This document shows, piece after piece, positions 6,422 through 28,713 of a stretch of DNA of 64,000 bases. The DNA comes from Burkholderia pseudomultivorans. GTDB lineage: Bacteria; Pseudomonadota; Gammaproteobacteria; Burkholderiales; Burkholderiaceae. A program made the position numbers and the translations under genes. The notes beneath the pieces are model-generated. The model was not told the origin of the DNA and did no database searches. It saw nothing but the letters and a program-made list of their open reading frames with translations. The stretch covers positions 186,001 through 250,000 of the forward strand of contig NZ_CP013377.1 of assembly GCF_001718415.1 (NCBI RefSeq), given 5' to 3'. Positions within the stretch are counted from its first letter, which is position 1. Each line of letters opens with the position of its first letter.

Positions 6422-6470
6422 GGACATGCCCGTTTGGGACATGCCCGTCCGGGACGTGCCCGTTGGGGAC
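6422..6470 (+). repeat. 15-bp tandem repeat, 3.3 copies
   Basis: GGACATGCCCGTTTG-like units start at 6422, 6437, 6452 and 6467 (last one partial). They lie between the lipoprotein stop and the H-NS start. The third unit has GTG in place of ATG. Confidence 0.8.
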
Positions 6471-6534
6471 AGCGCTTTTCAATTTGCGTGACGTTGGCTA
6501 TTTTCTTGAATAACCCTCACGGAATCCCATCGAT

Positions 6535-6828
6535 ATGGCGACCTACCGGCAACTGTCCGTGCAACTCGAACGGCTTCAGCAAAAGATCGACAAGGAACGC
6601 GAAAAGGCGATTGCCGACGCGATAGCCGAGATCCGCGCAAAAATCGACGAATTCGACATTACGCCGGAAGAACTCGGTTTCCGTCCGCTCGGCGCCGCCG
6701 CCGCAAAATCGAAGCGTCCGTTGCCGCCGAAATATCGCAACCCGAAGACGGGCGAAACGTGGAGCGGCCGCGGCCGCGCGCCGGCCTGGCTCGGCAAGAA
6801 CCGCACGCGTTTCCTGATCAAGGACTGA
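6535..6828 (+). CDS. H-NS family nucleoid-associated protein
   Basis: 97 residues, the usual length of Burkholderia H-NS-type proteins. Residues 1-50 form a coiled-coil oligomerisation region. The C-terminal DNA-binding motif reads YRNPKTGETWSGRGRAPAWL (about 68-87), the AT-hook-like loop of the family. It is expected to bind AT-rich DNA and silence transcription. A rho-independent terminator follows at 6863, and one copy of the window's 23-bp repeat sits two bases after the stop codon. No strong Shine-Dalgarno is visible before the ATG at 6535. Confidence 0.93.
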   Translation: MATYRQLSVQLERLQQKIDKEREKAIADAIAEIRAKIDEFDITPEELGFRPLGAAAAKSKRPLPPKYRNPKTGETWSGRGRAPAWLGKNRTRFLIKD

Positions 6829-6829
6829 C

Positions 6830-6846
6830 TCCCGAAAACGCTCACC
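6830..6846 (-). repeat. Outlying copy of the 23-bp repeat
   Basis: Minus strand reads GGTGAGCGTTTTCGGGA, a full match to the GGTGAG-N6-CGGGA core of the array at 9768-10061. It begins two bases after the H-NS stop codon. Confidence 0.75.
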
Positions 6847-6903: not shown

Positions 6904-7378
6904 CATGCCACCGCAATGCGATTGCGTTTCGCGAATCGTCGTGCGACAGCACGCAATTAACGGATCGCCTTGCGCGAATTCGCCGCGATTCGACTGCTTG
7001 TCGCGGCGATTTTCGGTAAACACGCCTGCAATTGCGCATGGCCCGAGCATTCGCATTGGCGAATTTCGCGGTGCATGCGCGGCGCAGGTTTTCATCACCG
7101 CTCGCCGATTTGCGTGTCGTTGCACGCCGGTCCCGAAGATTCTCACCATGGCTCCTGTAAATCCTCACCTTTGATCTGCATGACGCGGGCAGTCGTGCCT
7201 GCGCCGTGCATGGATGGCGAGTCGATGATGCCGTTGTTGACGGCCGCCGGATAGCTGGCCGTTCGGCATATAGGCAGCCGCAGGCCGTTCGCCTATGCTT
7301 GGAATTCGCGTCGCCCGGCGCGCGGCCCGCACGGCCGCGTGTCGGCCGGATCGTCTTTCATTACCGTATGGAGCCGAT
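6904..7378. other. Intergenic stretch, less GC-rich, no gene
   Basis: About 475 bases between the H-NS terminator and the Pat-like gene. Base composition is less GC-rich than its neighbours, and the open frames show no family features. It contains two repeat copies at 7131-7169 and the promoter region of the acetyltransferase gene. The lower GC could make it an H-NS target. Confidence 0.5.
7131..7169 (-). repeat. Two tandem outlying copies of the 23-bp repeat
   Basis: On the minus strand GGTGAGGATTTACAGGA (7169 to 7153, one mismatch in CGGGA) is followed 22 bases on by GGTGAGAATCTTCGGGA (7147 to 7131, full match). Same orientation as the copy at 6830-6846. Confidence 0.7.
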
Positions 7379-9736
7379 GTGACCGTTCGCCATCTCGATG
7401 CGTTGTTCCAGCCCAGGTCCGTTGCGGTCGTCGGTGCGTCGTCGCGTGAAGGCAGCATCGGCGCGATGGTGTGGTCGCGCGTGCTGGCCGGTGCGTTCCA
7501 GGGGCCCGTCTGGCCCGTCAATCCGAAACACCGCGAGCTGGACGGGCATACCGTCGTGGCCGACGTCGACCGGCTGCCCGCGCCGCCGTCGGTCGCCGTG
7601 ATCTGCACGCCGCCGGCGACATGGGCCGGCATCGTGCGCAAGCTCGGCGAACTCGGCACGCGTGTCGCGATCATCGTCGGCGAGGCGCGCACCGATGCCG
7701 ACCGCGTCGCGCTCGATCGCACGCTCAAGGCCGCGAAGCCGTTCGTGCTCCGTATCGTCGGGCCGGGCAGCCTCGGCGTGTTGTCGCCCGCGCGTCACGC
7801 GCATTTCGGCGCACCGGCGTATACGGCGCGTTCCGGCGGCGTCGCGTGGGTGTCGCAATCGAATGCGTTGACGAACGCGGTGCTGGGCTGGGCCGGCGCG
7901 CGCGGGCTCGGTTTTTCGCACGTCGTCGCGCTCGGCAGCGAGGCCGACGTCGACGCAGGCGACGTGATCGACTATCTGGCGAGCGATCCCGGCACCCGTG
8001 CGATCCTGCTCGAACTCGATTCGGTGCGCGCCGCGCGCAAGTTCATGTCGGCCGCGCGCGCGGCGGCGCGCAACAAGCCGGTGCTCGCATTGCGCACCGG
8101 CCGCGCGGATCCCGGCGATGCGCTTTACACGGCGGCGTTCCAGCGCGCGGGGATGGTCCGCGTCGATGCGCTCGACGATCTGCTCGACGAGATCGAGACG
8201 CTCGGTGTCGGCCGCGTCACGGCGCGCGGCGCGGCGACGCTCGTGACGAGCGATGCGGGCGTCGCGAAGCTGGCGGTCGATGCCGTGGCGGAGGTGCGCG
8301 ACGTGCTGTCCGACTGGCCGCCGGCCGCCACGGCCGCCGTGTCGGCCGCGTTGCCGCATCTCGAGGCGCCGGGCAATCCGCTGACGCTCGGCGACGATGC
8401 GCGCCCCGAGCATTTCGCCGCGGCGATCAAGGCGCTGGCGCCGTTCCCGCAGACAGGCACGTTGTTCGTCGTGCACTCGACGTCGCACAGCGCGCCGGCC
8501 GAACGGGTTGCGCGTACGCTGATCGATTCGCGGCAGCATGCGCATCGCGGGATCCTCGCGTGTTTCTTTGGCGCGGTCGATGCGGCGACGCGCGACGCGC
8601 TGCACGCGAACGGCATTCCGGTGCACACGACGCCGCAGCGGCTCGCGCGCGCCTACGCGCGTCTGGTCGACTACAACCTCGGGCGCGAACTGCTGATGCA
8701 GACGCCGGAGGGCACGCCGCTGCAGCCGGCCGGGTGCGTCGCGTCCGCACAGGCCGACGCGCGCCGGATGCTCGAAGCCGGGCAACACGAACTTGCCGGC
8801 GACGCCGCGCTGCAATGGCTGTCCCATTTCGGTCTGCGCGGCGCGACGGCGGACGACCAGGCGGGCGCGAGGATCGTCGACGTGACGGTCGACATGTACG
8901 ACGATTCGAATTTCGGCCCGGTGTTTCGTTACACGGTGCCGTCGGCGGATGGCATCTCGGCGCCGTTCGTCGTCTACGGATTGCCGCCGATGAATACGGT
9001 GCTCGCGCGTGCGGTGATGGCGCGCTCGCCCTATGCGCGTCGTGCGCCGGTCGAGCCGACGCTCGATGCGCTGACCGCGTTGTCGCAGGTCGTGTGCGAC
9101 GTGCGCGAGGTCGTCGCGATGTCGGTCACGCTGCGCGTGTTGCCCGACCGCGCGCGGCTGATCGCGCCGCGCATCACGCTGGCCGCGGGGCGCAGCCGGC
9201 TCGCGATCATGCCGTATCCGCGTCATCTCGAACAGACGCTCGACTGGCGCGGCGAGACGGCGACGATTCGTCCGATCCGGCCGGAAGACGAGGCCGCGCA
9301 CAACGAGCTGCTCGCGGCGATGACGCCGGAGGACCTGCGCATGCGCTTCTTCGGCGCGGTGCGCAGCTTCGATCATTCACAGGTCGCGCGCATGACGCAG
9401 ATCGACTACGACCGCGAAATGGCCTTCATCGTCGAGGTGACCGACGCATCGGGCCGGTCGCATACGCTCGCGGTCGCGCGCGCGGTGGCCGATCCCGACA
9501 ACGAGACGGCGGAATTCGCGATCGCCGTGCGGCCGGACCAGAAGGGCAAGGGGCTCGGGCGGCTGATGATGACGCGCATCATCGACTACGCGCGCTCGCG
9601 CGGCACCGCATGGATGGTCGGCGAGGCGCTGCGCGAGAACGCGCCGATGATCTCGCTGGCGAAGTCGTGCGGGTTCGAGGTGTCGGCGACGGAGGAGCCG
9701 GGCGTCGTCGGCTTCAGGATGAAGCTGCAGCCGTAG
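7379..9736 (+). CDS. Pat-like protein: NDP-forming acyl-CoA synthetase fused to GNAT acetyltransferase
   Basis: 785 residues. The N-terminal part (about 1-120) is a CoA-binding Rossmann domain (SVAVVGASSREGSIG), followed by a succinyl-CoA-synthetase-like ligase region to about 430. The C-terminal GNAT domain begins near 625 (TIRPIRPEDEAAH) and has the acetyl-CoA loop RPDQKGKGLGRL. Related enzymes such as Pat acetylate lysines on acyl-CoA synthetases. The region between about 450 and 620, where an ATP-grasp domain belongs, is shorter and lacks motifs I would expect, so ligase activity is probably lost while the acetyltransferase is kept. I chose GTG at 7379 because GGAG lies 5 bases before it; the ATG at 7295 adds a basic tail. 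Confidence 0.82.
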   Translation: MTVRHLDALFQPRSVAVVGASSREGSIGAMVWSRVLAGAFQGPVWPVNPKHRELDGHTVVADVDRLPAPPSVAVICTPPATWAGIVRKLGELGTRVAIIVGEARTDADRVALDRTLKAAKPFVLRIVGPGSLGVLSPARHAHFGAPAYTARSGGVAWVSQSNALTNAVLGWAGARGLGFSHVVALGSEADVDAGDVIDYLASDPGTRAILLELDSVRAARKFMSAARAAARNKPVLALRTGRADPGDALYTAAFQRAGMVRVDALDDLLDEIETLGVGRVTARGAATLVTSDAGVAKLAVDAVAEVRDVLSDWPPAATAAVSAALPHLEAPGNPLTLGDDARPEHFAAAIKALAPFPQTGTLFVVHSTSHSAPAERVARTLIDSRQHAHRGILACFFGAVDAATRDALHANGIPVHTTPQRLARAYARLVDYNLGRELLMQTPEGTPLQPAGCVASAQADARRMLEAGQHELAGDAALQWLSHFGLRGATADDQAGARIVDVTVDMYDDSNFGPVFRYTVPSADGISAPFVVYGLPPMNTVLARAVMARSPYARRAPVEPTLDALTALSQVVCDVREVVAMSVTLRVLPDRARLIAPRITLAAGRSRLAIMPYPRHLEQTLDWRGETATIRPIRPEDEAAHNELLAAMTPEDLRMRFFGAVRSFDHSQVARMTQIDYDREMAFIVEVTDASGRSHTLAVARAVADPDNETAEFAIAVRPDQKGKGLGRLMMTRIIDYARSRGTAWMVGEALRENAPMISLAKSCGFEVSATEEPGVVGFRMKLQP

Positions 9737-9767
9737 GGCAGGCGAAATGCCGCGCAGCGAGCTGAAA

Positions 9768-10061
9768 GGTGAGATTTTTCGGGAACAGCGAGTGAGCGCT
9801 TACGGGAGTCCGAAGGTGAGCCGATACGGGAGCGCCCGGTGAGCTTCCTCGGGAACCGCCGGTGAGCCTTTCCGGGATGCATCGGTGAGGGCCTGCGGGA
9901 AGGCGTGGTGAGACTGTTCGGGAAGCACCGGTGAGCGTCTGCGGGAGGCACCGGTGAGGACTTCCGGGACGACTTCGGTGAGCGTCTCCGGGATCGTCTG
10001 GTGAGCTTTTCCGGGAGGAAAGGTGAGCGCTCACTAAACGCCGGGGTGAGTATTTACGGGA
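9768..10061 (+). repeat. 13-copy tandem array of a 23-bp repeat (GGTGAG-N6-CGGGA-N6)
   Basis: Unit starts: 9768, 9791, 9815, 9838, 9861, 9884, 9907, 9930, 9953, 9977, 10000, 10022, 10045. Spacing is 22-24 bases and nearly always 23. GGTGAG is kept in 12 units (AGTGAG in the second) and CGGGA in 12 (lost in the twelfth); the six bases after each core vary. It fills the gap between two convergent genes. Three more copies lie at 6830-6846 and 7131-7169 in the opposite orientation. It has no CRISPR character: the conserved part is split and short, and no cas gene is present. Confidence 0.9.
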
Positions 10062-10155
10062 GTGTGCGGGCGTTCGCCTTCCGCAGGCGCGGGTGCCGGC
10101 GCGGCCCGCGCCTGCGTGCCGCGGGCCCGGCACGAACCGTGCCCGCGGCGGGATT

Positions 10156-10698
10156 TCAGGCAGCGAGTTTTGCCGCCGCGTCGTTCACCTGCTCGCGCGA
10201 AATCGCGAGTTCTTCGAGGTGCGCATCGGCGTAGACCGCGCCCGTTTCGCGCTCGAGGCGGGCGATCGTCAGCGCGCAGCGCGCGGTGTCCTTCGGCATC
10301 GCGATGAAGCGCTTGACCGACTCGCCGGACGTGAACGCGTCGAACAGCGCGCCGCGCACGTCGTCCGGAAGCGTCTTGGTCCACTGGTACGGCTTGCCGT
10401 TGAACGTGATCGACGGCGGCAGCGTGCGTTCCTTCTTGGTTGCCGTGATGAGCCCGTAGGTGCGGGCCGCATCGCCGATCTGCTCGGGCGAGAACAGCTC
10501 GTCGGGCGTGATGTCGAACTGCTCGATGTAGTCCTCGATCGCCTGCATCGCGGCGGCACGATCGTCGCGCTTTTTCTGGGCGCGCGCGACGATGTCGCGC
10601 AGTTCGTCCGCCTCTTCGGGCGTGATCGTGAAGCTTGCCTGCTTCTGCTGAAGTTCGGAGAAACGCTGGAATTCTTGATCGTTCAGAAGTTTGGCCAT
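10156..10698 (-). CDS. H-NS-like protein with extended C-terminus, function unknown
   Basis: 180 residues, acidic and helical, no signal or membrane segment. Residues about 1-60 are a coiled-coil-like region rich in Gln, Glu and Lys. The segment EQFDITPDELF (about 69-79) matches the FDITPEELGF linker of the H-NS protein at 6535. It is followed by RTLPP and NGKPYQW, which parallel RPLPPKY and KTGETW of that protein. The last 80 residues (from about 115) have no counterpart there. I infer a divergent H-NS-type paralogue, but this is not certain. The ATG at 10698 has only a weak GGAT upstream; 10707 is an alternative. Its 3' end faces the 23-bp repeat array. Confidence 0.6.
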   Translation of the reverse strand: MAKLLNDQEFQRFSELQQKQASFTITPEEADELRDIVARAQKKRDDRAAAMQAIEDYIEQFDITPDELFSPEQIGDAARTYGLITATKKERTLPPSITFNGKPYQWTKTLPDDVRGALFDAFTSGESVKRFIAMPKDTARCALTIARLERETGAVYADAHLEELAISREQVNDAAAKLAA

Positions 10699-28530: not shown

Positions 28531-28686
28531 ATGAGCTTCATCTTCGCGCTGCTGCAAAAGATCGACGACCTGTTCGTTTCGCCGCACCTGCCGCTCGATG
28601 CGGAATACTCGTACGCTGCCCGTCGCGCTGAAGCCGAGCGTGTGCGTCGCTCGCATCTCGTGCCGATTTGCCTGTACCGTCGCTGA
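28531..28686 (+). CDS. 51-residue small protein, unknown
   Basis: 51 residues: a hydrophobic N-terminus MSFIFALLQKIDDLF, then PLDAEYSYAARRAEAERVRRSHL with a basic helical character. AGGAG lies 7 bases before the ATG and two palindromic sites lie just upstream, so it looks like a real, regulated gene although very short. It may form an amphipathic helix at the membrane. No family recognised with confidence; the Tyr/Ala/Arg pattern recalls small DUF proteins common in Burkholderia. The stop codon lies in the first unit of an 8-bp tandem repeat. Confidence 0.65.
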   Translation: MSFIFALLQKIDDLFVSPHLPLDAEYSYAARRAEAERVRRSHLVPICLYRR

Positions 28687-28713
28687 TTCGCTGATTCGCT
28701 GATTCGCTGATTC
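28682..28713 (+). repeat. 8-bp tandem repeat GCTGATTC, 4 copies
   Basis: Four exact units at 28682, 28690, 28698 and 28706. The first contains the stop codon of the 51-residue ORF, so copy-number change would not alter the protein. Confidence 0.85.

Follow-up and report, generated by a model that had tools for sequence, protein, structure and literature searches.

The 64-kb window analyzed here spans bases 186,001 to 250,000 of contig C1 (2,995,708 bp) in the three-contig, 7.96-Mb genome of Burkholderia pseudomultivorans, and it contains a tandem array of the repeat GGTGAG-N6-CGGGA on the plus strand at positions 9768 to 10061. As the original prediction had it, the array comprises 13 units spaced at 22 to 24 bp. 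Eleven of these are exact, the unit at 9791 carries one mismatch (AGTGAG), and the one at 10022 is a half-unit that retains GGTGAG and has lost CGGGA. The first unit in order (9768 to 9784) is also the strongest, scoring 33.4 bits on the profile of origin repeats introduced below. Three outlying copies, likewise predicted and real, lie on the minus strand: an exact copy at 6830 to 6846 (31.1 bits) and a 22-bp pair at 7131 to 7147 (exact; 21.0 bits) and 7153 to 7169 (30.6 bits, with the single core mismatch CAGGA). The exact pattern occurs 13 times in the window, compared to a mean of 0.03 and a maximum of 1 in 100 dinucleotide shuffles. When two mismatches were allowed, 43 matches were found versus 29 expected, and thus just the near-exact copies are meaningful.

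The array and the outliers are separated by a plus-strand gene of 785 amino acids (aa) (7379 to 9736) that is GNAT/CoA-binding/succinyl-CoA-ligase-like according to Pfam, and which served as our synteny anchor across genomes (here called the GNAT gene). Judged by its product, B. pseudomultivorans LMG 26883 is the nearest named relative, at 98%. The outlier at 6830 lies directly 3' of the stop codon of a plus-strand gene for a 97-aa H-NS-type protein (6535 to 6828; PF00816). On the other side, the array is met by a convergent minus-strand gene of 180 aa (10156 to 10698), whose product had no matches among Pfam and NCBIfam models, so that the two repeat groups do not, as had been proposed, sit beside two recognizable H-NS genes. 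It had also been supposed that the cores all face one side of the DNA. This is incorrect: with 10.5 bp to the turn, 23 bp makes 2.19 turns, and successive cores are therefore rotated by ~69 degrees.

Across the whole genome, the exact pattern was found 41 times, versus 2 for the pattern read backwards. The largest cluster, with ~20 copies, occupies the terminal stretch of C1, just ahead of a repA gene (C1:1-1365). The RepA product possesses WH1 and WH2 domains of the Rep3 initiator type, and parB- and parA-like genes come next; its sole match in the PDB was the PI protein, and this was weak (E 0.0068). Based on the Rep3-type repA, the par genes, and the size of the cluster, we take C1 to be chromosome 2 (chr2) and the cluster to be its origin, ori2. 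The array is situated ~196 kb from repA in this genome. A profile of 20 ori2 sites from this genome, with the consensus AAAGGTGAGGTTTTTCGGGAGCC, recovers both the array and the outliers. The likeness between array and ori2 extends past both cores, as a T is found at the fifth spacer base in 549 of 587 array units from 50 genomes, which were located without using the spacer, and in 241 of 259 origin sites from 16 loci, where the site-picking profile favors T.

The original prediction knew of no described element with this core, but the core had in fact been printed. In Du et al. (2016), the consensus given for the chromosome 2 (c2) iterons of B. cenocepacia J2315 is the reverse complement of our repeat, and one table legend mentions that c2 iterons form a second cluster, 140 kb away from the origin (PMC4948915). 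The match to this printed consensus therefore makes the array a cluster of iterons remote from the origin, such as had been sighted once in print. Judged by sequence, the array and its outliers are very probably a chr2 iteron locus, and the earlier idea of a protein-binding array appears right in kind, in that the core is that of the chr2-origin iterons. One further copy, of the form GGTGAGGATTTTCGGGA, was observed 10 to 15 kb downstream of repA in all seven genomes compared (G000 C1:13377-13393/L011, G001, G006, G008, G015, G024, and G055); in G000, it falls inside a 290-aa open reading frame (ORF), where it may be an iteron contained within a coding region.

The locus is conserved throughout the genus. 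We compared this genome with 60 others sampled from Burkholderia, and all 61 contained a close pair of exact units (reversed control, 0) as well as the GNAT gene. Minus-strand sites were present upstream of the GNAT gene in all 61, and 60 also had plus-strand sites downstream of it, at a threshold for which 613,189 bp of reversed control sequence gave 1 false match. The one genome lacking downstream sites, G023, has a broken GNAT gene in which the contig terminates. Tandem arrays of 6 to 20 units were found in 50 of the 61 genomes, and ten genomes had one or two downstream sites, all of them encoding a GNAT protein just 71 to 76% identical. The spacing is rigid: of the 537 steps measured across these arrays, 452 were exactly 23 bp and 499 were 22 to 24 bp; another 36 differed by at most 1 bp from a multiple of 23, leaving 2 others (25 and 44). 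All 23 named loci, including those of B. cenocepacia, B. cepacia, B. ambifaria, B. dolosa, and B. ubonensis, also had this layout, with 2 to 3 upstream and 2 to 18 downstream sites; these are not independent, as 21 apparently overlap the 61-genome sample, and they supply names rather than new evidence.

For the 14 arrays in which every step is 23 bp, units could be aligned without shift. The two cores were 97.2% and 94.2% identical, values that are somewhat inflated because a relaxed core pattern was used to pick these arrays, compared to 82.6% for the N6 spacer and 66.7% for the linker; four-fold sites of the neighboring gene were 81.7% identical. The units at the ends of the array were the strongest (mean, 31.6 and 28.4 bits), and inner units scored 10 to 25 bits. 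Unit-specific spacers are kept across species, such as CCGATA in unit 3, which is found in 13 of the 14 arrays. Because spacers particular to each unit are shared among species, the array has not been homogenized.

The distance of the locus from the origin is also conserved. The GNAT gene lies 95 to 270 kb from repA (median, 148 kb) in all 48 genomes in which both are on one contig; in the remaining 13, they are on separate contigs. For replicons of known length, this amounts to 3 to 10% of the total, and the placement is origin-proximal, as expected for early duplication, in 48 of 48. The relative orientation of repA and the GNAT gene is the same in 44 of these and inverted in G006, G021, G029, and G049, in which the locus lies 101 to 263 kb away on the other side. 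The replicon thus appears, from its sequence, to carry several initiator-type sites outside its origin.

Strong copies elsewhere were mapped with a stricter form, GGTGAGNNTTTNCGGGA, in six further Burkholderia genomes. Matches were confined to the chr2 contig in G001, G006, and G055. Off chr2, G024 had two, both on chromosome 3 (chr3); G015 had one on the main chromosome (chr1) and two on chr3; and of the four in G008, three were on the main chromosome and the fourth was on chr3. Strong chr1 sites were therefore absent from 4 of the 6 genomes (G001, G006, G024, and G055), and none is common to all. For a licensing site of the crtS type, a conserved main-chromosome site would be expected; the scan found none and the array is on chr2, although crtS need not resemble an iteron, and the scan leaves room for one. 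In this genome, the isolated exact copies at C2:189541, 519106, and 654092 are inside predicted ORFs, that at C2:1481873 is intergenic as read by eye, and that at C2:1374445 belongs to the chr3-origin pair described below.

Outside the genus, the locus looks sparser. RepA is 79 to 93% identical in sister genera, and we scanned 57 GNAT loci at 59 to 69% identity (Paraburkholderia, Trinickia, Caballeronia, and four labeled Burkholderia sp.), nearly all with 3-kb flanks. A strong minus-strand site pair was found 2.0 to 2.8 kb upstream of the GNAT gene in 16 loci, and two had a single plus-strand match; in the other 39, no sites were in view, though the short flank leaves farther sites possible (reversed control, 1 match in 472,283 bp). 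Among 176 non-Burkholderia genomes, 16 had exact close pairs, with no more than 2 in any one of them, versus 24 of 24 within Burkholderia, so at this sensitivity, the dense array looks peculiar to Burkholderia. In four of nine sister-genus genomes, strong sites do cluster tightly at some distance from repA, namely, in G100 (209 kb), G106 (106 and 149 kb), G208 (65 to 74 kb), and G143 (~48 kb). We also observed that G208 carries its chr2-type repA and iterons on a 6.68-Mb contig of a 6.7-Mb genome (G208:C1, L252), as if chromosomes had fused, and that in L236, from Caballeronia fortuita, parA- and parB-like ORFs adjoin the GNAT gene as judged by eye.

The control that limits each chromosome to one replication round per cell cycle has been worked out mainly in Vibrio, and a 2026 survey describes finding replication timers outside Vibrio as an open task. 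Weighing the comparative evidence, we consider it reasonably likely that the Burkholderia locus exerts negative replication control, through RepA titration or handcuffing that restrains re-initiation at ori2. The array and the three outliers would together form one locus of predicted RepA sites on chr2 itself. RepA held at this remote locus would be unavailable to ori2 (titration), and it may also pair the locus with the origin iterons (handcuffing). A fork leaving ori2 would double the locus minutes after firing, and the extra sites might then help to block refiring in the same cycle. With a fork speed of ~33 kb/min, as reported for c1 and c2, and distances of 95 to 270 kb, doubling is estimated to occur ~3 to 8 min after initiation across genomes, and at ~6 min for the 196 kb seen here. 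RepA binding, the inhibition of ori2 by that binding, and the timing are what we infer from this arrangement. Conserved in cis and made up of probable initiator sites, the locus was present in all sampled Burkholderia genomes and offers a defined target for deletion.

It is also important to point out what weighs against negative control. The inner array units score well below the ~30 bits of the ori2 iterons, so their affinity for RepA may be low, and the core identities are somewhat inflated, as noted above. The conserved distance may be due in part to conserved gene order. Since ori2 itself has one DnaA-like box only, the absence of such boxes from the remote locus tells us little. Finally, five of nine sister-genus genomes with near-identical RepA (G225, G132, G135, G102, and G113) have no tight strong-site group far from the origin. 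Assuming that the G132 and G135 contigs stop near their last sites, nothing lies beyond ~45 kb in these five save a single isolated site in G135; a remote locus of this sort is therefore not a requirement of this type of replicon.

Alternatively, RepA might bind the locus as an architectural or positioning site, contributing to looping to ori2, cohesion, or segregation rather than acting as a brake. The two iteron groups that lie in opposite orientation on either side of one gene in 60 of the 61 genomes, the conserved distance to repA, and the dense, phased sites, which fit a nucleoprotein filament, are all compatible with such a role. However, parAB is located at ori2, and we know of no Rep3 initiator with an architectural or positioning function. 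We regard this alternative as improbable, although it is the best placed of those considered.

Plasmid Rep proteins are often transcription regulators, and RepA could in this way regulate the H-NS-type and GNAT genes, coupling their expression to chr2 copy number. The three sites between these two genes would suit this role, but the array itself sits between convergent genes. Moreover, the site pair is followed by a different gene in the inspected sister-genus loci; in L206, L221, L225, and L208, it is one we take to be prfC-like. Such regulation is thus distinctly unlikely.

Because origins are marked by iteron clusters, the locus could in principle be a second or relic chr2 origin. Comparison with ori2 speaks against this. 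In 1.7 kb, ori2 has 6 CTGTGCA 7-mers and a GC content of 0.565 that falls to a 50-bp minimum of 0.32, versus zero 7-mers, a GC content of 0.687, and a minimum of 0.46 in the 3.3 kb of the remote locus. The locus therefore lacks both the accessory repeats of ori2 and an AT-rich melting region (its GC content is 0.67 to 0.69), and repA is located elsewhere. Steps at ori2 are irregular (22, 66, 44, 78, 66, 33...), unlike the rigid 23 bp of the array. When L010 was compared to 15 other ori2 loci, this irregular spacing was largely kept in the Burkholderia loci and in four loci of the genera g13, g20, and g25, and partly lost in genus g8. With origin features missing from the remote locus, we rejected a second origin as very unlikely.

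The original prediction had tied the repeats to H-NS-like genes, as an operator or an RNA element. A grain of this remains: there is an H-NS-type neighbor here, and among six sister-genus loci inspected by eye, three (L206, L221, and L225) also have an H-NS-type gene ahead of the site pair, making one H-NS-type gene an old neighbor of the locus. As a general rule, the tie is mostly wrong, because only one of the six PF00816 genes in the genome has an exact copy within 4 kb (C1:192727), the repeats are most numerous at ori2, and the second neighbor is not a recognized H-NS gene; another PF00816 gene has an intragenic exact copy ~4.7 kb off. An H-NS-linked operator was accordingly rejected by this whole-genome survey. 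As for an RNA element, there was no Rfam match at the gathering threshold, and folding of the array RNA was only modestly better than that of shuffles (z, -1.85; 9 of 200 shuffles equally good), with a z of -3.35 over 9740 to 10150, a stretch that includes GC-rich hairpins 3' of the array. We therefore place very little credence in either form of the proposal. Two other tandem repeats were seen in the window, a 15-bp repeat (GGACATGCCCGTTCG, 3.3 copies, 6422 to 6471) shortly 5' of the H-NS-type gene and a perfect 8-bp repeat (TCGCTGAT, 4.2 copies, 28680 to 28713).

It had been anticipated that absence of a link to H-NS-type genes, or poor conservation in close relatives, would reduce the repeat to a plain satellite; the link is indeed largely absent, but the locus is strongly conserved. 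A functionless minisatellite would account for a tandem array whose copy number varies from 6 to 20, but it can be practically dismissed, since its units would be unconstrained and homogenized, and in the 14 aligned arrays, the cores are held (94 to 97%) while linkers drift (67%), the step is fixed, and the unit 3 spacer persists.

The chr2-type iterons are not restricted to chr2. Copies upstream of the chr3 repA, comprising three of those on the chr3 contigs of G008, G015, and G024 plus two from this genome, prompted a scan of 22 chr3 origin regions (L259, L264-L283, and G000:C2:1374445-1374494/L019) with the chr2 profile. Seventeen of these had chr2-type iterons upstream of the chr3 repA, 15 as a pair and 2 as a single site, and five had none (G029, G035, G045, G048, and G057); the result was 13 of 18 when the four prompting genomes were left out, and the reversed control gave 0 in 125,612 bp. 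The sites are spaced at 33 to 34 bp, in the orientation of repA, and lie 1.6 to 1.8 kb upstream of it (3.1 kb in this genome). One further match in this genome was a c3-type iteron that half fits the chr2 profile. The chr3 iterons proper number 8 to 14 per origin and are mostly nearer to the gene, and no c3-type iterons were found in the 11 chr2 loci scanned. We found no prior report of chr2-type iterons at chr3 origins in our searches of open-licence papers.

A link from chr2 to chr3 is possible, and the chr2-type sites in chr3 origins provide a specific, testable inter-replicon hypothesis. More speculatively, RepA could be a cross-replicon timer, with sites at ori2, at the remote locus, whose doubling would signal that the fork has passed, and in the chr3-origin pair, such that capture and release of chr2 RepA would gate chr3 initiation; the 33- to 34-bp spacing of the pair, about three turns, would then be helically phased. 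Such a timer is tentative, and we consider it rather unlikely. If true, this would be a coordination resembling that of Vibrio crtS, but assembled from ordinary iterons and directed at a third replicon. Separately, we noted that the chr3-type repA of this genome (G000:C2:1370129-1371364; L019), which is 36% identical to chr2 RepA and adjoined by c3-type iterons, sits on the 4.85-Mb contig C2. As relatives have comparable 36%-type repA genes on separate chr3 contigs, this strain may carry a chr1-chr3 cointegrate.

Arrays of this kind have counterparts in known systems. Those of P1 incA-type plasmids, which serve incompatibility and copy control, are tandem iterons outside the minimal origin that act by titration and handcuffing; they lie within a few kilobases of the origin, whereas the Burkholderia array is 95 to 270 kb off, on a megabase replicon. 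The chr2 iterons of J2315 share their sequence with ours, and the second cluster 140 kb away is mentioned in a legend, with "titrat" and "handcuff" absent from the main text (PMC4948915); relative to that mention, we describe the architecture of the cluster, its genus-wide conservation, and its distance. The datA locus of E. coli (PMC3937223 and PMC6090056) resembles the locus proposed here in being a place outside the origin where an initiator binds and initiation is restrained, but its sites are for DnaA and it promotes hydrolysis of DnaA-ATP, and nothing comparable is suggested for the Burkholderia array. A further parallel is offered by the RctB sites of V. cholerae chrII (Baek and Chattoraj 2014; PMC3937223), which are initiator-type sites on a secondary chromosome, outside and near the origin; in experiments, the remote sites lowered mini-chrII copy number by titration, inhibiting its replication, and had no origin activity. 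In Burkholderia, by comparison, the sites form two compact groups, one of them a 23-bp tandem array, for a Rep3 initiator, and are known from sequence.
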